This document shows positions 22,957 through 36,172 of a DNA stretch of 64,000 nucleotides, piece after piece. The position numbers were made by a program, and so were the translations under genes. Below the pieces are notes generated by a model, which saw only the letters and a program-made list of their open reading frames with translations, was not told the origin of the DNA and made no database searches. This stretch comes from Kribbella amoyensis (lineage in GTDB: Bacteria; Actinomycetota; Actinomycetes; Propionibacteriales; Kribbellaceae): assembly GCF_007828865.1 (NCBI RefSeq), contig NZ_VIVK01000001.1, positions 496,001-560,000 on the forward strand, read 5' to 3'. Positions within the stretch are counted from its first letter, which is position 1; each line of letters begins with the position of its first letter.

Positions 22957-23856
22957 TCAGGCTGTTGCCGTCAAGGTCCCCAGAGCGACCGCCACGCGAC
23001 CGTCCGCGGCCGCGAGGGCTTCTCGGGCTGCTGGGATGGGGGTTCCGGTGAGGAGGTGGACCAGGGCCGGCTTCAGCTCGCCTTCGGCTGCTGTCAAAGC
23101 TTCGGCGCTGGCCTCCGGGGTGGCTCCGGTGGCTTCGGCGAGGATTCTCAGCATCCGGCCGCGGAGTTTGTTGTTGGTGGCAACCATGTCGACCATCAGG
23201 TTCGACCAGGTACGGCCGAGCTTGATCATCAGGGTGGTGGAGAAGGCGTTCAGGATCATCTTCTGCGCCGTCCCCGCCTTCAACCGGGTCGAGCCCGCGA
23301 TCACCTCGGGACCGGTATCGGCCGCGATCACGATGTCGGCCAGCGGGGCGAGCGGCGCGTCCGGGTTCGACGTCACCAGGGCCGTGACGGCGCCGGCTGC
23401 CCGGGCCGCGCGGAGGGCACCCGCGACGTACGGGGTGCTGCCCGAGGCGGCCAGGCCGATCACCACGTCGCGGTCGGTCACCTCGGCCGCGTCGGCGGCG
23501 CCACCGGTTTCGGAGTCCTCGACGTTCTCGACGGCGCGGAGCAACGCCTCCATGCCGCCGGCGTGGTGCGCCACGACCAGGTCGGCGGGGGCGTGGAAGG
23601 TGGGGAGGAGCTCGGCGGCGTCCAGGACCGCCAGGCGGCCGGACGTCCCGGCGCCGAAGTAGTGCACGCGGCCGCCGTTGCGGACCGCCTCGACGGCGGC
23701 GTCGACGGCTCGGGCCAGTTCGGGGAGGACGGCGTTGACGGCACCCGCCACCCGGGCGTCCTCCGCGTTGACCATCCCGAGGATCTCGGTGGTGCCCACC
23801 GCATCGATCGCGAGCGTCCTCGGGTTGCGCTGCTCCGTGGGTGTGATCACACCCAC
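22957..23856 (-). CDS. murQ: N-acetylmuramic acid 6-phosphate etherase
   Basis: Cleaves the lactyl ether of MurNAc-6-phosphate to give GlcNAc-6-phosphate and D-lactate, the committed step of MurNAc recycling. 299 residues, family length, single SIS domain: YFGAGTSGRLAVLDAAE at 67-82 with the catalytic Glu 82, the second Glu in GGMEALLRAVENVEDSE, GLAASGSTPYV for phosphate binding, and KMILNAFST. A GTG start at 23856; a GTG two codons later is possible. It lies 26 bases after murR, as last gene of the salvage cluster. Confidence 0.95.
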   Translation of the reverse strand: MGVITPTEQRNPRTLAIDAVGTTEILGMVNAEDARVAGAVNAVLPELARAVDAAVEAVRNGGRVHYFGAGTSGRLAVLDAAELLPTFHAPADLVVAHHAGGMEALLRAVENVEDSETGGAADAAEVTDRDVVIGLAASGSTPYVAGALRAARAAGAVTALVTSNPDAPLAPLADIVIAADTGPEVIAGSTRLKAGTAQKMILNAFSTTLMIKLGRTWSNLMVDMVATNNKLRGRMLRILAEATGATPEASAEALTAAEGELKPALVHLLTGTPIPAAREALAAADGRVAVALGTLTATA

Positions 23857-23882: not shown

Positions 23883-24785
23883 TCAATTCTGTGGGTCGTT
23901 GACGGAACCCTTCACGCGGTGCCCTCGCACGGCGCTCGCGGTCTCCTCCAGCGCCTTCCGCGCGTCCGGCAGCACGGACTGTGCGACCCCGATGAACAGG
24001 CAGTCGATCACCGTCAGCTGAGCGATCCGGCTCGACATCGCGCCGGACCGGTACGTCGTCTCGCGGGCGGCCGTGGTCAGCACCAGATCGGCCGTCTGGG
24101 CGAGCGGCGAGCGGGGGAAGTTGGTCAGCGCAACCGTGGTGGCGCCGCGCTTGCCGGCCTCCTCGAGCGCCTCGATCACCTCGACCGTCGCCCCGGTGTG
24201 CGAGATGCCGATCGCGACGTCGCCCTCGCCGAGCAGCGCCGCGCTGGTCAACGCCACATGGACGTCGGACCAGGCGAACGCGACCCGGCGGATGCGGTGC
24301 AGCTTCTGCTGCAGGTCGAGCGCCACGAAGGAACTGGCCGCGGAGCCGTACAGGTCGACCCGCGGTGCCTTGGCGACCGCGGCGACGACCTTGGCGAGCG
24401 CGTCCACGTCGAGCTGCTGAGCGGTCTCGCGGACCGCCCGTTCGTCGGCGAAGGCCACCTTGCCGACCACGTCGGCCAGCGAGTCGCCCGGCTCGATCTC
24501 ACCCCCGACCTCGGGTCTCGCACTCTCCTGCGCCGACTGGGCGGCCAGCTGCAGACGGAGCTGCGGATAGCCCGGCACGCCGATCTGCTTGCAGAACCGG
24601 ATGACGGTGGTCTCCGAGGTGGACGCCACCTCGGCCAGTTCCGAGATCGTCATGGCCGCGACTCCGCCCGGGTCCGCGAGGACCGCGTTCGCCACCCGCT
24701 GCTCGGCCGGGGCCAACGCGGGCATCACCGCGCGGACCCGGACCAGCAGCGGCCCCGTGGGTTCAGGAGACGTCGAGGAAGTCAT
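23883..24785 (-). CDS. murR: RpiR-family regulator of muropeptide recycling (MurR-like)
   Basis: 300 residues. N-terminal RpiR helix-turn-helix (TISELAEVASTSETTVIRFCKQIG) and C-terminal SIS sugar-phosphate domain (IGISHTGATVEVIEALEEA). In Escherichia coli and Bacillus, MurR binds MurNAc-6-phosphate and represses the recycling genes; here it lies directly before murQ and after the hydrolase genes, so the same role is inferred. The ATG at 24785 gives MTSSTSPEP; the longer frame lacks a ribosome site. A candidate binding palindrome lies upstream of nagZ at 32241. Confidence 0.88.
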   Translation of the reverse strand: MTSSTSPEPTGPLLVRVRAVMPALAPAEQRVANAVLADPGGVAAMTISELAEVASTSETTVIRFCKQIGVPGYPQLRLQLAAQSAQESARPEVGGEIEPGDSLADVVGKVAFADERAVRETAQQLDVDALAKVVAAVAKAPRVDLYGSAASSFVALDLQQKLHRIRRVAFAWSDVHVALTSAALLGEGDVAIGISHTGATVEVIEALEEAGKRGATTVALTNFPRSPLAQTADLVLTTAARETTYRSGAMSSRIAQLTVIDCLFIGVAQSVLPDARKALEETASAVRGHRVKGSVNDPQN

Positions 24786-24820
24786 GTGGCCACGGTACGG
24801 CGAACGGGCACCGAGCGGGG

Positions 24821-26548
24821 TCACCGACGCGAAAGTCTCCAACCCGAGGCGGTAAATGACTCAGGCGTTCGTTCTCCGTCGAAGAGCACCCGGTGACCGG
24901 CGCTGATCTTCACGCCGTCCACGTACACCCCACGGCCTTGGTACAGCGGGTCGGAGGTGTAACGCCACCGGACCGTCTGGTCACCGCCGGGCAGCTCCGC
25001 GGACACCTGGTGCCAGTGCCGATCGCCGGATCCGCTGATGGTGCCGTCGTGGTCGATCACCGTGCCCCGGTCGCGGACCGTGAACGGAACCTTCGTCCAA
25101 GTGGTCCCGTCGGCCGAGGACTCCAGGTACAGCAGGTCGGTGTCCTCGGTGTCCACGAACAGGTCGAAGGCCAGCTTGGCCCCTGCGGCCGGGACGGCGA
25201 CCCGGGCGTCCAGCGTCGTCGTACTGGCGTCGGTGGTACCGGAGAACCAGGCGTCCTTGCCGTGCCGCGGTCCCACGCCCAGGGACAGCGCGAGGCCCTG
25301 GGCGACGGCGCGACGGGCCGGGTTGTTGCTGCCCCAGTTCCGGCTCGGGTGGACCCGGTTGGAGAGCAGGATCGCGAACGAGCGGGAGTCGAAGTCGATC
25401 ACCAAGGACGTGCCGGTGTACCCGGTGTGGCCGGCGGTGCGCGGCCCGGACAGCCCGGACATGTACCAGCGCTGGTTCAGCTCGAACCCGAGCCCGTGGT
25501 CGTTGCCCGGGAACGCCTGGTTGAAGTTGGTGATCATCGCGGTCACGGAGCTCTCCTTGAGGATCCGCGCCTGCCGGTAGCTGCCGCCGTTGAGGAACGC
25601 CTGCGCCAGCACGGCGAGGTCGTCGGCCGTGCTGAACACGCCCGCGTGCCCGGCGACACCGTCCAGCGACCACGCGTTCTCGTCGTGCACCGAGCCCCAG
25701 ACCATCCCGCGCGCCGGTGCGGTCTGGTACTCCGTGGCCGCGATCCGTTGCTTCTTCTTCGGGTCCGGGTTGTACCCGGTGTCGCGCATCTGCAGCGGCT
25801 TGGTGATGCCGTCCGCGACCAGCTTGTCCAGCGTCTTGCCGGACACCCGGTGCGCGACCTCGCCGAGGGAGATCAGGTTCAGATCGCTGTAGAGGTACGT
25901 GGAGCCTGGCGTACTGCTCGGCTTCGCGGTCAGCGCCATCTGCAGCCGCGAGGCCGGATCGGGCCGGGCGCTCCACAACGGCAGCCAGGACGGCAGCCCG
26001 GTGGTGTGGGTGAGCGCCTGCCGGACCGTGATCGATTCCTTGCCGTTCTCGGCGAACTCCGGCACGTACTGCGCGATCGGCGCGTCCAGGGCGACCTTGT
26101 TCTTCTCGACCAGTTGCAGCACCACGATCGAGGTGAACAGCTTGGACACCGAGGCCATGTCGAAGATCGTGTCGGTGCGCATCGGGATCTGCTGGTCGGC
26201 CGGCAGCTCGGTGCCGTTGCCGTCGGCGTACTTGACCGCCATCCCGGTCGCCTCGCGGGTGACCACCTTGCCGTCGTGGCCGAGCAGCGTGACCGCGCCG
26301 GCGTACAGCGGCTTGACCGTGCCGTTCGGCTTGGTCCAGCCCTCGACCTGGGCCAGCGCGGCGTCGATCGGCGCCGGGTCCAGGCCCGCCTTCGCCGGGG
26401 TGGCGTCGCGGAGCAGGGTGGACTTCGGCGCGTAGCCCGAGAAGGGCTGGTCGAACCGTCCGGATTTGTTGCCCGCGGCAACCGCAGGGCCGGCCATGGT
26501 GAGCATCACCACGGACACTACCGCGATTCCGGCTGCTCTAATCCTCAC
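24821..26548 (-). CDS. Secreted serine hydrolase of the beta-lactamase/PBP fold (AmiE-like)
   Basis: 575 residues. A signal peptide (1-25) precedes a beta-lactamase-fold domain: SVSK at 133-136 (SxxK), YSDLN as the second motif, and HTGYTG in place of KTG. A C-terminal beta-sandwich region of about 150 residues is of unknown function. In the Bacillus subtilis mur cluster a serine hydrolase of this fold, AmiE, removes peptide from MurNAc-peptides; synteny suggests the same here. A DD-carboxypeptidase or esterase is the alternative. The GTG start overlaps the namZ stop by four bases (GTGA). Confidence 0.8.
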   Translation of the reverse strand: MRIRAAGIAVVSVVMLTMAGPAVAAGNKSGRFDQPFSGYAPKSTLLRDATPAKAGLDPAPIDAALAQVEGWTKPNGTVKPLYAGAVTLLGHDGKVVTREATGMAVKYADGNGTELPADQQIPMRTDTIFDMASVSKLFTSIVVLQLVEKNKVALDAPIAQYVPEFAENGKESITVRQALTHTTGLPSWLPLWSARPDPASRLQMALTAKPSSTPGSTYLYSDLNLISLGEVAHRVSGKTLDKLVADGITKPLQMRDTGYNPDPKKKQRIAATEYQTAPARGMVWGSVHDENAWSLDGVAGHAGVFSTADDLAVLAQAFLNGGSYRQARILKESSVTAMITNFNQAFPGNDHGLGFELNQRWYMSGLSGPRTAGHTGYTGTSLVIDFDSRSFAILLSNRVHPSRNWGSNNPARRAVAQGLALSLGVGPRHGKDAWFSGTTDASTTTLDARVAVPAAGAKLAFDLFVDTEDTDLLYLESSADGTTWTKVPFTVRDRGTVIDHDGTISGSGDRHWHQVSAELPGGDQTVRWRYTSDPLYQGRGVYVDGVKISAGHRVLFDGERTPESFTASGWRLSRR

Positions 26549-27831
26549 CGGTGCGCTCCCTTGTACAGCAGGTACTTGGCCCGCCGCGCGGTCCACGCGT
26601 CGGTCTCGGACTTCCAGGCCGCGACGATCTCCTCGGCCGAGGCGCCCGCGGTCAGCATGGTGCGGAACCGGTCCGACCCGGTGAGCAGGTCGATCCAGCG
26701 GCCGGGCGGGTTCTCGGCCCGCCAGGCGAACTCGGGGTACAGCTTCTTCGCCTCGACGATCATGTGGGTGGCCGCGACGATCGCCTCGACCTTGCCCGGG
26801 TCGGTGATCTGGACCTGGACGCCGCCGCAGAGCACGTTCGCGTTCTTGCTGATGAACGGGGTGAAGTACGCCTCCCGGAAGTCCACGCCCGGGATGTTCT
26901 TCGCCTGCAGCGCCTGGGCCCAGCGGTAGTCGACGTACGGGGCGCCGATCAGCTCGAACGGCCGGGTGGTACCACGGCCCTCGGACATGTTGGTCGCCTC
27001 GAACAGACAGGTGCCCGCGTACAGCAGCGCGGTGTCCGGGGTCGGCATGTTCGGGCTCGGCATCACCCAGGTCAGGCCGGTCTCACCGAACAGTTGCTCG
27101 CGCTTCCAGCCCTTCAGCTGGATCACCTGAAGCTCCTTCAGCCGGGCCCCGTTCGCGTCCAGCGGCAGGTACTCCGCGTTGAACAGCCGGGCCAGCTCGC
27201 CCACGGTCATCCCATGCTGCTGGATGATCTCCTCCTTGCCCACGCCGGAGGTGTACCCGGGCTTGAGCATCGGGCCGCGCGCGTACCCGCCGACCGGGTT
27301 CGGCCGGTCGAGCACGACGAACTTCGCGCCGGTCCGGACCGCGGCCAGCATCGCCTCGTACATGGTCCAGATGTAGGTGTAGAACCGGGACCCGACGTCC
27401 TGGATGTCGAACACCACGGTCTCGACGCCGGACTTGGTGTACAGCGACGCCAGCTTGTCCGCGTTCGCGCCGTACGCGTCGTAGACCATGATCCCGGTCC
27501 GCGGGTCGACGTGGTCGCCCTCGGAACCACCGGCCTGCGCGCTGCCGCGGAAGCCGTGCTCGGGACCGAACACGGCGGTCACGTTGACCTGCCCGGACGT
27601 GTGCATGGTGTCGACGATGTGGTTCAGGTCCTCGAGGATGCCGGTCGGGTTGCTGATCACCCCGACCTTCTGGCCGGCCAGCGCCCGCCAGCCGCTGTCG
27701 GCCAGCGCCTGCGCGCCCGTGATCACCCCCTTGCCGTGCTTGGCGGGCTCGGCCGCCGAGGCGGCGGGGACGTCGATCAGCGGTGCGGCGGCGAGCGCAC
27801 CGGCTCCGGCCAGCAGACTGCGGCGCTTCAT
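26545..27831 (-). CDS. namZ: Exported exo-beta-N-acetylmuramidase NamZ (DUF1343)
   Basis: 428 residues. The N-terminus MKRRSLLAGAGALAAAP is a Tat-like signal. The DUF1343 domain has its hallmark blocks: VFGPEHGFRGSAQAG, VFDIQDVGSRFYTYIWTM, VLDRPNPVGG, WVMPSPNMPTP and EGRGTTRPFE. Members of this family (GH171) release MurNAc from the non-reducing end of peptidoglycan fragments. Cluster position between nagZ and the amidase-like gene matches Bacillus. The start at 27831 has a short upstream extension with no support. Confidence 0.92.
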   Translation of the reverse strand: MKRRSLLAGAGALAAAPLIDVPAASAAEPAKHGKGVITGAQALADSGWRALAGQKVGVISNPTGILEDLNHIVDTMHTSGQVNVTAVFGPEHGFRGSAQAGGSEGDHVDPRTGIMVYDAYGANADKLASLYTKSGVETVVFDIQDVGSRFYTYIWTMYEAMLAAVRTGAKFVVLDRPNPVGGYARGPMLKPGYTSGVGKEEIIQQHGMTVGELARLFNAEYLPLDANGARLKELQVIQLKGWKREQLFGETGLTWVMPSPNMPTPDTALLYAGTCLFEATNMSEGRGTTRPFELIGAPYVDYRWAQALQAKNIPGVDFREAYFTPFISKNANVLCGGVQVQITDPGKVEAIVAATHMIVEAKKLYPEFAWRAENPPGRWIDLLTGSDRFRTMLTAGASAEEIVAAWKSETDAWTARRAKYLLYKGAHR

Positions 27832-27856: not shown

Positions 27857-30400
27857 TTACGGGCGGAAGGACAGGTCGGCCACCACGGGGCGGTGGTCAC
27901 TGGCCGCAGACTCGGGGGGAACGGTTGCCCGCCGGACGCGGAAGCCCGCACCGACGGTGACGAAGTCGATCCGCTTGACCGGATCGACCGCGGGATAGGT
28001 GAGCGGGCCGCCGACGGTCGTCTCCGCCGCGGTCCAGCTGTCGGTCAGGCGCTTCCACAGTTTGGCGAGCTCGGGAGCGCCAGCCTCGGCATTGAAGTCG
28101 CCGGTGATGATCTGCAGGTCCTTCTTCGGGTCCCGGGCCAGGATCTTCACCGTGTCGTCCACCTGCGCGCGCCGGACGGCCGGGTCGGCCCGGTAGTCCA
28201 GATGCGTGACGTAGACGTGGACGCGCTTGCCGCGCACCTCCAGCTCGGCCTCCAGGAACCCGGGCGCCGGCTTCGGTACCGGGTTCGGGTCCTGGGTGGA
28301 CAGCCTGGTGATCGGGTGGTTCTCGGTCCGGACCAACGGGAACCGGGACAGCACACCCACGCCGTACTGCCGGCGCGGCTGCCCGGCGGCGGGCGGGTCC
28401 AGGTCGTAGATCGGCGCGAACCCGTGGTACATCCCGAGTTTGCCGGCCAGCTCGGCCAGGGTGTCCCGCCACTCGCTCCGGGCGTCCCAGTGGACGTCGA
28501 CCTCCTGCAGGCCGATCACGTCCGCGTCGAGCGCCTTCAACGCCTGCGCGGTCCGGTCCAGATCGAACACGTTGTCCTGGCCGGCCCCGGCATGAACGTT
28601 GTACGAGGCAACGGTCAGCCGGGTGACCCGCGGGTCGAAGGTGAGCCCGTGACCGAACGGGTACAGCGTCCGAGTAGCGTCCGGCTGGGCCGGGATCGCG
28701 ACCGGGAGCTTGCCGGTCGGCGCGATCTCGCCGTACAGCACCTTCGCGAGCGCCTCCAGCGAGACGGCCGCGTACGAGTACGTCGCGAGCGTGGTCTGCG
28801 CCGAGCCGAAGTACGCGACGTCGTACGGGTCCCGGACCGCGACCACGATCACCGGGCGGCCGGTCGCGAGCAGCGCGTTCACGAGCTTCTGCTGCTTGGC
28901 CTGCTTGTCGGTGACGGCCGTGTCCCACGCCTTCATGGTGAGCACGACGGTGAGGTCGGCGTCCTTCGCGGCCGCCACGGCGTCGTCGATCTTCGCGTCG
29001 GTCGGCGTCGCCCCGGTGTCCTTGACGATCGCGGTCGCGCCGCGACCCTGCAACGCCGTACCGAGGGCCGTCGGCAGGTACCCGGCGACCAGGATCCTGC
29101 GGGAAGCCGGGGACAACGGCAGCAGGCCCGCGTCGTTCCTCAGCAGGGTGGTGGTGTGGTCCGCGATCTCCTGCGCGACCGCGTAGTTGGCCGGGGTACC
29201 GACCACCTTGGCGACCTGGGCGAGATCGACGTACGGGCGGTCGACGACGCCGGTCCTCACCTTCAGCTTGAGGATCCGCTCGACGCTCTGGTCGATCCGC
29301 TGCTCGCTGATCCGGCCGCTGCGGACCGCGTCGAGCACGGAGTTGTACGCCAGGCCCGGGTCGACCGGCATGAGCAGCTGGTCGACGCCCGCCTCGAGCG
29401 CGCGCAACGGGATCTCGGCGTCGCCGTACTTGTCCCGAACGCCTTTCATACCGAGCGAATCGGTGATCACGACACCGTCGAACCGGAGCTGCTCGCGCAG
29501 GATCCCGGTGAGGATCGGCCGGCTCAACGTCGCCGGGTCCTCGGACGGGTCGAGCGCCGGCACCACGATGTGCGCGGTCATGATCGAGTCGATCCCGGCC
29601 CGGATCGCCGCGTCGAACGGCGGCCGGTCGATCGCGTTCCACTCGTCCCGGGTGTGGCTGATCACCGGGATGCCGGTGTGGCTGTCGGTCGCGGTGTCGC
29701 CGTGGCCCGGGAAGTGCTTGGCGGTCGAGACGATCCGGCCGTCCCGCTGGTACCCGGTGACCTGGGCGGCGGTGAGCTCCGCGACCAGGGCCGGGTCCGA
29801 GGAGAACGAGCGGACCCCGATGACCGGGTTCAGCGGGTTCACGTTCACGTCGGCGACCGGGGCGAAGTCGGTGGTCACGCCGACCGCCTTCAGCTCGCGG
29901 CCGCCGATCCCGCCCGCCCGGCGCGCGTACTGCGCCGAGCGGGTCGCGCCGAGGGCCATCGCCCCCGGGAACTGCGTGGCCGGCGGCCCGACCCGGAACA
30001 CGACGCCGTGCTCCTGGTCGGTGCTGATCTGCAGCGGGATCCCCGTGTTCTGCAGGGAGGCGCTCTGCAGGCCGTTCGACAGCCGCGCGATCTGCTGCGG
30101 GTCCTTCACCGAATCGGTCCAGGCGAAGTAGATCACCCCGCCGAGGTGGTACTTGCGAACCACCTCGGCCGGCGTCGCCACGCCGTACAGGCTGGTGTTG
30201 CGGGCATCGGCCGTGTCCGCCGTCGGGCCGTACGCGTAGCAGACGAAGAGCTGGCCGACCTTCTGCTCCAGCGACATCCCGGCGAGGGTGTCGCGGACCC
30301 ATCTGCTGGTCGCCGCCTGGGCCTGGCCGGTCCCGGCCAGCGTCGTCCCGGCGACGGCGGCCGCGGCGAGTCCGAGGGTCTGACGTCGCGTCAGCTCCAT
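27857..30400 (-). CDS. Tat-exported NagZ fused to an endonuclease/exonuclease/phosphatase domain
   Basis: 847 residues. Tat signal MELTRRQTLGLAAAAVAG. Residues about 33-590 form a GH3 beta-N-acetylglucosaminidase of the NagZ type: KHFPGHGDT from 228, DSH at 239-241 as acid/base dyad, and the nucleophile Asp 314 in VITDSLGM. Residues about 595-847 form an EEP-fold phosphoesterase with complete motifs: SYNVHAG, LQEVD, THLDY, TGDFNAE and SDHRP. The junction falls where the sister NagZ stops (YPFGHGL). The GH3 part would release GlcNAc; the EEP substrate, some exposed phosphodiester or phosphomonoester, is unknown. It starts two bases after the upstream nagZ stop. Confidence 0.9.
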   Translation of the reverse strand: MELTRRQTLGLAAAAVAGTTLAGTGQAQAATSRWVRDTLAGMSLEQKVGQLFVCYAYGPTADTADARNTSLYGVATPAEVVRKYHLGGVIYFAWTDSVKDPQQIARLSNGLQSASLQNTGIPLQISTDQEHGVVFRVGPPATQFPGAMALGATRSAQYARRAGGIGGRELKAVGVTTDFAPVADVNVNPLNPVIGVRSFSSDPALVAELTAAQVTGYQRDGRIVSTAKHFPGHGDTATDSHTGIPVISHTRDEWNAIDRPPFDAAIRAGIDSIMTAHIVVPALDPSEDPATLSRPILTGILREQLRFDGVVITDSLGMKGVRDKYGDAEIPLRALEAGVDQLLMPVDPGLAYNSVLDAVRSGRISEQRIDQSVERILKLKVRTGVVDRPYVDLAQVAKVVGTPANYAVAQEIADHTTTLLRNDAGLLPLSPASRRILVAGYLPTALGTALQGRGATAIVKDTGATPTDAKIDDAVAAAKDADLTVVLTMKAWDTAVTDKQAKQQKLVNALLATGRPVIVVAVRDPYDVAYFGSAQTTLATYSYAAVSLEALAKVLYGEIAPTGKLPVAIPAQPDATRTLYPFGHGLTFDPRVTRLTVASYNVHAGAGQDNVFDLDRTAQALKALDADVIGLQEVDVHWDARSEWRDTLAELAGKLGMYHGFAPIYDLDPPAAGQPRRQYGVGVLSRFPLVRTENHPITRLSTQDPNPVPKPAPGFLEAELEVRGKRVHVYVTHLDYRADPAVRRAQVDDTVKILARDPKKDLQIITGDFNAEAGAPELAKLWKRLTDSWTAAETTVGGPLTYPAVDPVKRIDFVTVGAGFRVRRATVPPESAASDHRPVVADLSFRP

Positions 30401-30402
30401 CG

Positions 30403-32226
30403 TCACCAGCTCAGCCCGTGGCCGAACGGGTACAGCGGCGTCGCGGGCTGACCGGCGACCGGGATGTCGACCGGGAGCTTGCCGGCCGGCGCGATCTCGC
30501 CGTACAGGACCTTGGTGAGCGCCTCCATCGACACGGCCTGGTAGCCGTAGGTGGCGACGTACGTCGGCGCGGCGTCGAAGTACGCGATGTCGTACGGGTC
30601 GCGGACGGCGACCACGATCACCGTCTTGCCGGTGGCGAGCAGGTCCTTCACCAGCTTCTGCTGCTTGGCCTGCTTGTCGGTGACAGTGGTGTCCCATGCC
30701 TTCTGGGTCAGCACCACGGTGACGTCGTTGGCCTGCGCCTTCGCGACCGCGTCGGCGATCGCCGCGTCGGTCGGTGCCGCGCCGGTCTGCGCGACCGTGG
30801 TGGTGGCGCCGCGCTTGGCCAGGCTGGTCGCGAGCGACTGGGTGGTGGTGACGCCCCAGCCGGTGACCAGGACCTTGCGGGCCTCGTTGCTCAGCGGCAG
30901 CGTGTTCGCGTCGTTCTTGACCAGGGTGATCGACTTGTCGACGATCTGCTGCGCGGTGGCGAGGCTGGCCGGCGTACCGACCGTGGTGGCGACCTTGGCC
31001 GGGTCGACGAACGGCTGGAACGCGACGCCGTTCTTCACCTTCGACAACAGGATCCGCAGCAGGCTCTCGTCGATCCGGCGCTCGCTGATCCGGCCCGACT
31101 TCACCGCGTCCACGACCGCCTTGAACTGCACGTCCGGCGCCGGCGGCAGCAGCAGCTGGTCCGCCCCGGCCTCGATCGCGCGAACGGCCACCTCGGCGTC
31201 GCCGTACTTGGCCCGCACCGCCGCCATCTCCAGCGCGTCGGTGATGATCAGGCCGCGGAACTTCAGCTGGTCGCGCAGCACGCCGGTCAGGATCGGCTTG
31301 CTCAACGTCGCCGGGTCACCCGACGGATCGAGCGACGGGACGACGATGTGCGCGGTCATGATCGAGTCGATGCCGGCCTTGATCGCGGCCTCGAACGGCG
31401 GCCGGTCGATCGTGTTCCACTCTTCGAGGGTGTGGTTGATCGTCGGCAGCGAGGTGTGGCTGTCGTCCCGGGTGTCACCGTGACCGGGGAAGTGCTTCGC
31501 GGTCGCCATGATCCGGGCGTCCTGCTGGTACCCCCGGGTCTGCGCGACCGTCAGGTCGGAGACCAGCTTGGGGTCGCTGGAGAACGACCGGACCCCGATC
31601 ACCGGGTTCAGCGCGTTCACGTTCACGTCGGCGACCGGCGCGTAGTCCTGCCGGATCCCCATCGCCTCCAGCTCGCGCCCGGTGATCCCGGCCGCGGTCC
31701 GCGCGTCCGCCGTACTGCGAGCCGCGCCGTGCGCCATGTTCCCGCCGAACTGGGTGGCGGGCGGGCCGATCCGGACCACGACGCCCTGCTCCTGGTCGGT
31801 GGCGATCGTCAGCGGGACGTGGAGGCCGGTCTTCAGGGCCTCGGCCTGGAGCTGGTTCGAGTACGTCGCGAGCTGGGTCGGGTTCTGCACGTTGTCGCGG
31901 GCGTTGAAGTAGATCCACCCGCCCGGCTTGTACTTCGCGACCACCTCGGCCGGCGTGGCGACGCCGTACAGGCTGGTGTTGCGGGCATCCGGCTTGGACG
32001 CGTCCGGCCCGTAGGCGAACAGGACGAACATCTGCCCGATCTTCTCCTCGAGCGACATCCCGTGGATGACCCGCCCGACCTGCTGCGCGGAGGTGAAAGC
32101 CTGCGGTGGAACCTTCGGCTCGGGCGGCGGCGCACTCACCGCGGCGGTGGGCGCCAGCGCGGCCACCGTGGCGGTGGCGGTGCAGGCGGCGAGCGTGGCG
32201 ATGGCAGAGCGGCGCAATGCGGACAT
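30403..32226 (-). CDS. nagZ: Secreted beta-N-acetylglucosaminidase NagZ (GH3)
   Basis: 607 residues with a signal peptide (1-32). GH3 motifs: KHFPGHG at 244-250, DSH at 255-257, nucleophile Asp 330 in IITDALEM; a C-terminal alpha/beta sandwich domain ends YPFGHGLSW. The secreted, two-domain form corresponds to the Gram-positive NagZ and not the small cytoplasmic one of enterobacteria. It shares long blocks with the GH3 half of the next gene, so the pair arose by tandem duplication. First gene of the salvage operon. Confidence 0.93.
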   Translation of the reverse strand: MSALRRSAIATLAACTATATVAALAPTAAVSAPPPEPKVPPQAFTSAQQVGRVIHGMSLEEKIGQMFVLFAYGPDASKPDARNTSLYGVATPAEVVAKYKPGGWIYFNARDNVQNPTQLATYSNQLQAEALKTGLHVPLTIATDQEQGVVVRIGPPATQFGGNMAHGAARSTADARTAAGITGRELEAMGIRQDYAPVADVNVNALNPVIGVRSFSSDPKLVSDLTVAQTRGYQQDARIMATAKHFPGHGDTRDDSHTSLPTINHTLEEWNTIDRPPFEAAIKAGIDSIMTAHIVVPSLDPSGDPATLSKPILTGVLRDQLKFRGLIITDALEMAAVRAKYGDAEVAVRAIEAGADQLLLPPAPDVQFKAVVDAVKSGRISERRIDESLLRILLSKVKNGVAFQPFVDPAKVATTVGTPASLATAQQIVDKSITLVKNDANTLPLSNEARKVLVTGWGVTTTQSLATSLAKRGATTTVAQTGAAPTDAAIADAVAKAQANDVTVVLTQKAWDTTVTDKQAKQQKLVKDLLATGKTVIVVAVRDPYDIAYFDAAPTYVATYGYQAVSMEALTKVLYGEIAPAGKLPVDIPVAGQPATPLYPFGHGLSW

Positions 32227-34825: not shown

Positions 34826-36172
34826 TCAGAGCTTGAGGGCGGTGGCGACTGTTTCGGCGAGGGAGTGAGCGATCTCGGTGGCCGCGTCGGAGGACTCCGC
34901 CTCGACCATCACGCGGACCAGCGGTTCGGTCCCGGACGGGCGGAGCAGGACGCGCCCGGTGTCGCCGAGCCGAGCAGTGGCCGCTGCCACCGCGGACTGG
35001 ACGGCCGGGTCGGTCCCCGCGCGGGACTTGTCGACGTCGGGGACGTTGACCAGGACCTGCGGGAGCCGGGTCATGACGCCGGCCAGGTCGCGCAGGCTCT
35101 TGCCCGTCTGGGCCAGCCGGGCCAGCAGCATGACCGCGGTCAGGGTGCCGTCGCCGGTGGTGGCGTGGTCGGACAGGATGACGTGACCGGACTGCTCGCC
35201 GCCGAGCTTGTGCCCGCCGGCCTTCATCGCCTCCAGCACGTACCGGTCGCCGACCTTGGTCTGCTCGACCGCGATCTGCTCCCGGACCATCGCCTGGACG
35301 AAGCCCAGGTTGCTCATCACGGTCGCCACCACGGTGTCGTTGGACAGCCGGCCGCCGTCGCGCATCGCCAGCGCCAGGATCGCGAGGATCTGGTCGCCGT
35401 CGACGAACTCGCCGGTGCTGTCCACCGCCAGGCAGCGGTCGGCGTCACCGTCGAGCGCGATGCCCAGGTCGGCGCCGTGGCCGATCACCTCGCGCCGCAG
35501 TCCCTCCATGTGGGTGGAACCGCAGTCGAGGTTGATGTTCAGGCCGTCCGGCTCCGCGGCGTGCGTGACCACCTCGGCGCCGAGCCGGCGCAGTGCCTCG
35601 GGGGCCGTCCCGGAGGCGGCGCCGTTGGCGCAGTCGATCACGACCTTGAGGCCGTCGAACCGGTTGGGCGACGACCGGACCAGGTGCGAGACATAGGTCT
35701 CGAAGCCCTGCCCGTCGTCGAGCACGCGGCCGACCTTCGCACCGGTCGGGCGCTGCCACTCCTCGCCGACGCGGGCCTCGATCGCGTCCTCGATCACGTC
35801 GTCGAGCTTGATCCCGCCACGGGCCAGGAACTTGATGCCGTTGTCCGGCATCGGGTTGTGGCTGGCGGACAGCATCACACCGAGGTCGGCGCCGGTCGAA
35901 CCGGTCAGGTACGCGACGGCGGGCGTCGGCAGGACGCCGAGCTTGAACACGTCGACGCCGGCGCTGGCCAGACCGGCCACCACGGCAGCTTCCAGGAACT
36001 CTCCACTGGCCCGCGGATCCCGGCCCACAACGGCGCGCGGCCGGTGCCCTTCGAAGGCACCGGCCTCGCCGAGTACGTGAGCTGCCGCGACCGAGAGGTC
36101 GAGCGCCAGCTCAGCGGTCAGGTCCACGTTCGCCAGGCCACGGACACCGTCCGTGCCGAACAAACGCGCCAT
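34826..36172 (-). CDS. glmM: Phosphoglucosamine mutase
   Basis: Converts glucosamine-6-phosphate to glucosamine-1-phosphate for UDP-GlcNAc. 448 residues: [12 protein letters not shown] start, phosphoserine loop SASHNP (Ser 104), metal loop DGDADR, sugar loop around GGEQSGH, and C-terminal phosphate loop [11 protein letters not shown]. It follows rpsI by nine bases, the standard rplM-rpsI-glmM order. glmS is not in the window. Confidence 0.97.

Follow-up and report, generated by a model that had tools for sequence, protein, structure and literature searches.

A NagZ–EEP fusion in a MurNAc-rescue operon of Kribbella and a candidate phosphate-removing step in muropeptide scavenging

The operon and its fused gene

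The window, i.e., the whole of the 64,000-nucleotide stretch of Kribbella amoyensis DNA that was analysed, carries on its minus strand the gene order nagZ, nagZ-EEP, namZ, AmpC/AmiE-like hydrolase, murR, and murQ. The first of these (30403..32226; ORF and Pfam) encodes a GH3-only NagZ, referred to here as the sister. The fusion coding sequence follows (27857..30400) and then, 25 nt downstream, namZ (26545..27831; Pfam NamZ_N/NamZ_C), an exo-beta-N-acetylmuramidase gene with a Tat-like leader and the SD sequence GGAGGAG. A second NamZ-like gene, of 50% identity, is located elsewhere in this genome (G000:C2:648371-649486). Next comes a secreted AmpC/AmiE/PBP4B-like serine hydrolase possessing a MAM-like domain (24821..26596; PF00144, PF20773), with a true start that may instead be at about 26518-26550, and with PBP4B as its best NCBIfam match, below the cut-off of that model. 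The C-terminal MAM domain of this hydrolase is InhA-type and is kept in Actinomycetota clusters. The set is completed by a MurR/RpiR-type regulator (23883..24842; Pfam HTH_6 plus SIS) and by murQ, for MurNAc-6-phosphate etherase (22957..23856; NCBIfam TIGR00274 at 304.6 bits versus a cut-off of 302, and NF003915 at 364 versus 168). With nagZ, namZ, an AmiE/AmpC-like hydrolase, murR, and murQ found together, this locus is a MurNAc-rescue operon. No murP-type uptake system was noticed among the genes adjacent to it.

The fused gene reads from an ATG at 30400 to a stop at 27857 without internal stop, its product beginning as MELTRRQTLGL 2 nt past the stop of the sister nagZ. A GTG at 30406, which overlaps that upstream stop, is an alternative start. 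The leader, LTRRQTLGLAAAAVAG...AQAA (30311..30400), is Tat-like by inspection and is kept in other fused genomes (e.g., L157); that is, MELTRRQTLGLAAAAVAG resembles a Tat signal and is putatively an export signal. Beyond this leader are found GH3 N-terminal catalytic (29264..30271; PF00933, aa 44-379, 302 bits) and C-terminal (28640..29149; PF01915, aa 418-587, 83.5 bits) domains. The former holds KHFPGHGDTATDSH, with D239 and H241, along with the nucleophile D314, which in alignment pairs with the D318 nucleophile of Bacillus subtilis NagZ (BsNagZ; 3bmx); both the D239/H241 dyad and D314 are invariant in a separate alignment, A2. The GH3 half is nearest to that same B. subtilis enzyme (E 7e-94), and the fusion has the sequence features of a two-domain, B. 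subtilis-type NagZ, i.e., GH3 N and C domains, the KHFPGHGD..DSH motif, the Asp-His dyad, and the Asp nucleophile.

The remainder is an EEP phosphodiesterase domain (27860..28621), as matched by PF03372 (aa 598-836, 90.5 bits versus a cut-off of 24.5) and also by PF23226; all three of the Pfam domains, GH3 N, GH3 C, and EEP, are essentially full length. Its metal and catalytic residues are N601, E633, H733, D768, N770, D835, and H836, with N601, E633, D768, N770, D835, and H836 invariant across the EEP alignment (A1). Profile and complete residue set together place the domain in the EEP superfamily (PF03372). Also seen in that alignment is a subfamily signature, RLSTQDPNPVPKPAPGF (28256..28306), which paralogues lack. 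The EEP half is modelled by AF2 at a pLDDT of 95.7. The full-length model (pTM 0.86, pLDDT 84) is lower over the EEP half, few EEP rows being present in the alignment used, and was left out of any argument concerning a fixed arrangement of domains.

Where the sister ends as ...YPFGHGLSW and stop, the fusion runs on as ...YPFGHGLTFDPRVTRLTVASYNVHAG. The original prediction, that this GH3 enzyme continues past the YPFGHGL end of its sister and into an EEP domain, is thereby borne out as a single 847-aa ORF. The catalytic motifs which that prediction listed are all present at the positions it gave, the junction which it placed near 28615 is located near 28621-28646, and the leader is consistent with the export that it proposed.

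Distribution and derivation of the fusion

A search of the genus found the full-length fusion in 24 of 38 Kribbella genomes, this one included. The other 23 copies are 79-88% identical to that of the window and lack stops, and the named matches to the fusion are Kribbella species. Relative to the window copy, median dN/dS is 0.24 over the GH3 portion and 0.21 over the EEP portion; purifying selection acts on the latter. Assembly error, or instead a missed stop at the junction, is ruled out by these genomes, their absence of stops, and these ratios. In 18 of the 24 fused genomes a search at E <= 1e-40 shows no further two-domain NagZ resembling the sister, and there the fused protein thus seems to be the sole NagZ of the operon.

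Kribbella ALI-6-A/G024 and G008 encode the EEP on its own, as a gene with a Sec-like signal peptide. There the EEP ATG and the nagZ stop lie in an 8-nt overlap of the two genes (ACATGGTGA), with nagZ ending as ...YPFGHGLTW and stop. Loss of that stop along with the EEP signal peptide would give the fused junction YPFGHGLTFDPRVTRLTVASYN. In the tree, which included eight fused sequences, these form one clade (support 100/99), and this clade is nested within a group whose remaining members fill the same operon slot unfused. The fusion, as judged from these sequences, is a single derived event. In another Kribbella (L141, from G028) the order is nagZ-nagZ-namZ-bla-murR-murQ, i.e., tandem nagZ genes with no EEP between them, where the missing EEP apparently represents a loss. 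A mobile or viral origin was considered as well and rejected, a scan of viral contigs with the EEP having found no relative.

It could be argued that the fusion is neutral, that is, that a deletion joined two operon neighbours with nothing gained from their sharing a single chain. Few residues lie between the two folds, the 8-nt gene overlap of unfused relatives eases fusion, and unfused versions persist. Neutrality is nevertheless made doubtful by retention across 24 genomes, by the purifying selection that acts on each half, and by the 18 of 24 genomes in which no other two-domain NagZ like the sister was found. This is in any case an argument over the value of fusing rather than over the role of the EEP.

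Recurrence of the EEP subfamily beside muropeptide genes

RLSTQ-type EEPs, i.e., those bearing the above-noted signature, are recurrently linked to nagZ, namZ, and bla in two phyla, their neighbours in deep Actinomycetota as well as in Bacillales being nagZ, namZ, or partners of these. Unfused, with its own signal peptide, and between nagZ and namZ, such an EEP is seen in Kribbella ALI-6-A/G024, Terrabacter, Terracoccus, Intrasporangium, and one further genome (G378). It is found directly after nagZ in Actinopolymorpha and adjoins an AmpC-like gene in two others (G411 and G040). Among Bacillales the arrangements are ABC importer-murR-bla-EEP-nagZ-namZ (L135), nagZ...GH3-namZ-bla-S13 carboxypeptidase-EEP (L136), EEP-nagZ (L137 and L138), and, in Natribacillus (L094), nagZ-namZ-EEP-bla-nagZ. 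A gene for a GH25 lysozyme or for an S13 D,D-carboxypeptidase also occurs in some EEP clusters, and in Ca. Stackebrandtia the lysozyme gene is located between EEP and nagZ. In one Bacillales locus (L137, 2436-3932) EEP-nagZ is followed by a gene resembling a GHL10 glycosyl hydrolase, and elsewhere a signature EEP comes immediately after a calcineurin-like phosphoesterase that bears Ig-like domains and is found in place of nagZ (L145, 4601-7411).

In Natribacillus a FIMAH domain is common to NagZ, NamZ, the EEP, and the AmpC-like protein, suggesting that they all act at one location. More broadly, proteins of the muropeptide clusters of L094 (2470-10206) and L136 (454-13287), including the S13 D,D-carboxypeptidase of the latter, have in common a FIMAH-type domain at the C-terminus, as though a single anchor had been provided for an entire pathway.

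In alignment, the nagZ/namZ-linked EEPs all carry RLSTQDPNPxPxPxPGF or something close to it. Paralogues which share the EEP fold but lack this signature, two from this genome and six from Bacillales, serve as a control, and none of these is near nagZ, namZ, or bla. Within Bacillales, five of five signature EEPs adjoin nagZ, namZ, or bla versus none of six which lack the signature (Fisher p = 0.002, phylogeny ignored), and over the sampled non-Kribbella lineages the counts are 10 of 14 versus 0 of 8 (Fisher p = 0.002, likewise ignoring phylogeny). An exception to this control is found in two other Kribbella, for which a signature-less EEP lies, beside glmM, about 0.7 kb (L156) or 7 kb (L157) from the operon (L156 7505-8269 and L157 15425-16219). 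The glmM of the window (34826-35983) is near to the operon as well, there without a signature-less EEP.

Linkage is not universal. Streptomyces and Amycolatopsis carry a signature EEP alone, away from nagZ and namZ. NamZ is nearly universal in Streptomyces, such that co-occurrence of NamZ with the EEP is uninformative there, and adjacency was used instead for that reason. Sampling of Bacillota at the level of phylum found the subfamily in one of 398 genomes, that of Natribacillus, so it is rare in that phylum. The deepest branches of the EEP subfamily, in a tree with a midpoint root only, sit in muropeptide clusters, and the linkage thus may be ancestral and later lost. A role for the EEP in this muropeptide-rescue operon is well supported.

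Possible function, alternatives, and known systems

NagZ and NamZ are exo-enzymes, and polymers found on MurNAc C6 should block them. LCP ligases attach glycopolymers to MurNAc via a C6 phosphodiester, and we know of no established route by which Gram-positive scavengers clear the resulting polymer stubs. Teichulosonic acid itself can be phosphate-free, in which case the phosphate would sit in the tether. The walls of Kribbella contain teichuronic or teichulosonic acids (PMC6113628), and MurNAc C6 is the usual site of tethering of wall glycopolymers, with GlcNAc serving sometimes, this tether being the C6 phosphodiester natural to peptidoglycan (PMC7831098).

The architecture, conservation, operon, and nagZ/namZ/bla linkage described above are observed; catalysis, a C6-phosphodiester substrate, and an order of action are inferred. 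The fusion would be an exported, bifunctional muropeptide enzyme in which the EEP serves as a C6-phosphodiesterase on a wall amino sugar, clearing phosphate-linked substituents from the path of NagZ and then NamZ, a reading to which we assign a probability of roughly 45%. The BsNagZ-type GH3 half would take non-reducing GlcNAc off of GlcNAc-MurNAc(-peptide). The EEP half, as a divalent-metal phosphodiesterase, would hydrolyse a phosphate ester at C6 of a wall amino sugar, with the likeliest target being the phosphodiester which tethers stubs of teichoic, teichuronic, or teichulosonic acid to MurNAc C6. An unblocked MurNAc end would be left, from which NamZ could release MurNAc, to be imported and then processed by MurQ. 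The order NagZ, EEP, and then NamZ matches the gene order nagZ-EEP-namZ. Counting against this reading is that rescue operons of the B. subtilis type function with no EEP (PMC5061867).

Joint attack on phosphate-bearing peptidoglycan had been part of the original prediction, and this is consistent with our findings as well as strengthened by the unfused EEPs found in nagZ/namZ operons of two phyla. What that prediction missed are the MurNAc-rescue operon, the derived, genus-level nature of the fusion, and the pointer to sugar C6 phosphodiesters. As candidate targets we rank C6 phosphodiesters of MurNAc or GlcNAc first, ahead of the teichoic acid, lipid-linked debris, sphingomyelin, and nucleic acid to which it had pointed.

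EEP folds act on many substrates, and the substrate here could instead be a nucleic acid, a lipid, or a phosphomonoester. By family, PF23226 (PGAP2IP-type EEP) matches the window EEP at 46.1 bits versus a cut-off of 27 and its relatives at 30-50 bits, with Natribacillus, at 21.9, below the cut-off. By fold, uncharacterised bacterial EEPs rank first, followed by BT3783 (Z 26.1), human neutral sphingomyelinase (25.2), TDP2, and others, with TDP2 and CNOT6L at Z 23-24.

The EEP might be involved in the scavenging of muropeptides and debris, yet act there as a nuclease or a phosphodiesterase of general type, supplying phosphate or nucleotides from lysed cells, rather than on wall sugars. The superfamily does include DNase I and extracellular nucleases, TDP2 and CNOT6L are among the fold matches, and there is a weak NCBIfam similarity to ExeM/NucH (20 bits versus a cut-off of 300). 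The tight, repeated linkage is to sugar-specific exo-enzymes rather than to nucleases, however, the conserved insert is specific to this subfamily, and the family match is to the sugar-phosphodiesterase/PGAP2IP cluster, all of which renders this alternative unlikely. Less likely still is hydrolysis of phospholipids or lipid-linked intermediates in membrane or wall debris, i.e., in the manner of sphingomyelinase or phospholipase C or of a VanJ-like undecaprenyl pyrophosphatase. A sphingomyelinase C profile matches the EEP (E 1e-5 to 4e-7), though with other EEPs ranking higher, and the VanJ C-terminus does so weakly (19-24 bits versus a cut-off of 700), neutral sphingomyelinase is close by fold, and Kribbella membranes contain phosphatidylcholine (polar lipid ‘PC’; PMC6113628); yet uncharacterised bacterial EEPs and BT3783 have higher scores by fold, no transmembrane or lipid-inserting segment was noted in the EEP, and the substrates of its operon partners are soluble muropeptides. 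Just as improbable is a phosphomonoesterase acting on MurNAc-6-P or GlcNAc-6-P left by wall-polymer breakdown, which would be required since uptake takes unphosphorylated sugars; while wall glycopolymers are expected to leave MurNAc-6-phosphate ends behind and BT3783 is titled as a mannosyl-6-phosphatase, the best-matching family (PF23226/GlcNAc-PDase) is one of phosphodiesterases.

Each domain is of a known family; it is the architecture which seems new, and the EEP as a recurrent component of muropeptide rescue is apparently undescribed. No description of a GH3-EEP fusion, or of an EEP in a nagZ/namZ operon, was found in the non-subscription literature searched, which is weak evidence of novelty. 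The separate, nagZ-linked EEPs of unrelated bacteria suggest an unrecognised phosphate-removing step in wall-fragment scavenging, and their recurrence in nagZ/namZ clusters, along with the Rosetta-stone fusion, supplies a concrete and assayable candidate for stub removal. If C6-phosphodiester activity is real, then this would be a new enzyme class unlinking wall polymers from peptidoglycan, and a possible tool for stripping such polymers. Only tentatively might RLSTQ-type EEPs in general be put forward as such a class, i.e., secreted peptidoglycan ‘unlinking’ phosphodiesterases that reverse LCP ligase attachment at MurNAc C6, found in two phyla and NagZ-fused in Kribbella.

Among characterised enzymes, those nearest by family and fold are GlcNAc-PDase and BT3783, which take C6 phospho(di)esters off of sugars. 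GlcNAc-PDase, defined within the PGAP2IP/Cwh43 EEP cluster (Fossa et al. 2023; PMC10704324), is a secreted EEP which strips phosphorylcholine or phosphoethanolamine from GlcNAc C6, which does not do so with galactose or mannose, and which requires the sugar for activity. It has the same six metal-site residues as the Kribbella EEP, the latter matching the Pfam PGAP2IP model, and is our proposed analogue for sugar-specific C6 phosphodiester chemistry. Its group, however, is single-domain and mostly of Clostridia, whereas the Kribbella EEP is fused to GH3, and the E-to-D spacing of metal residues, with GlcNAc-PDase compared by its published description, is 115 (E89 to D204) versus 135 in Kribbella. 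Given that shorter spacing, GlcNAc-PDase probably lacks the signature insert, the RLSTQ...PGF segment probably distinguishing the Kribbella EEP. BT3783 (PDB 4c1r), a mannosyl-6-phosphatase by PDB title only, is an EEP of similar fold but of about 22% identity, acting on a different sugar and without a peptidoglycan link. Sphingomyelinase C and Staphylococcus aureus beta-hemolysin share superfamily and metal site but seem more remote by profile and fold, and have no comparable operon.

For the GH3 half, the counterpart is B. subtilis NagZ (YbbD; 3bmx, 4gyj), with which it shares two-domain GH3 structure, catalytic motif, nucleophile, and fold. The ybbC gene of the B. subtilis rescue operon is now called namZ. 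That operon reads murQ-murR-murP-amiE-nagZ-ybbC, the Kribbella operon representing the same set of partners minus murP (PMC5061867), and it is the extra, C-terminal EEP, along with the Tat-like leader, which sets the Kribbella fusion apart from this EEP-less system.
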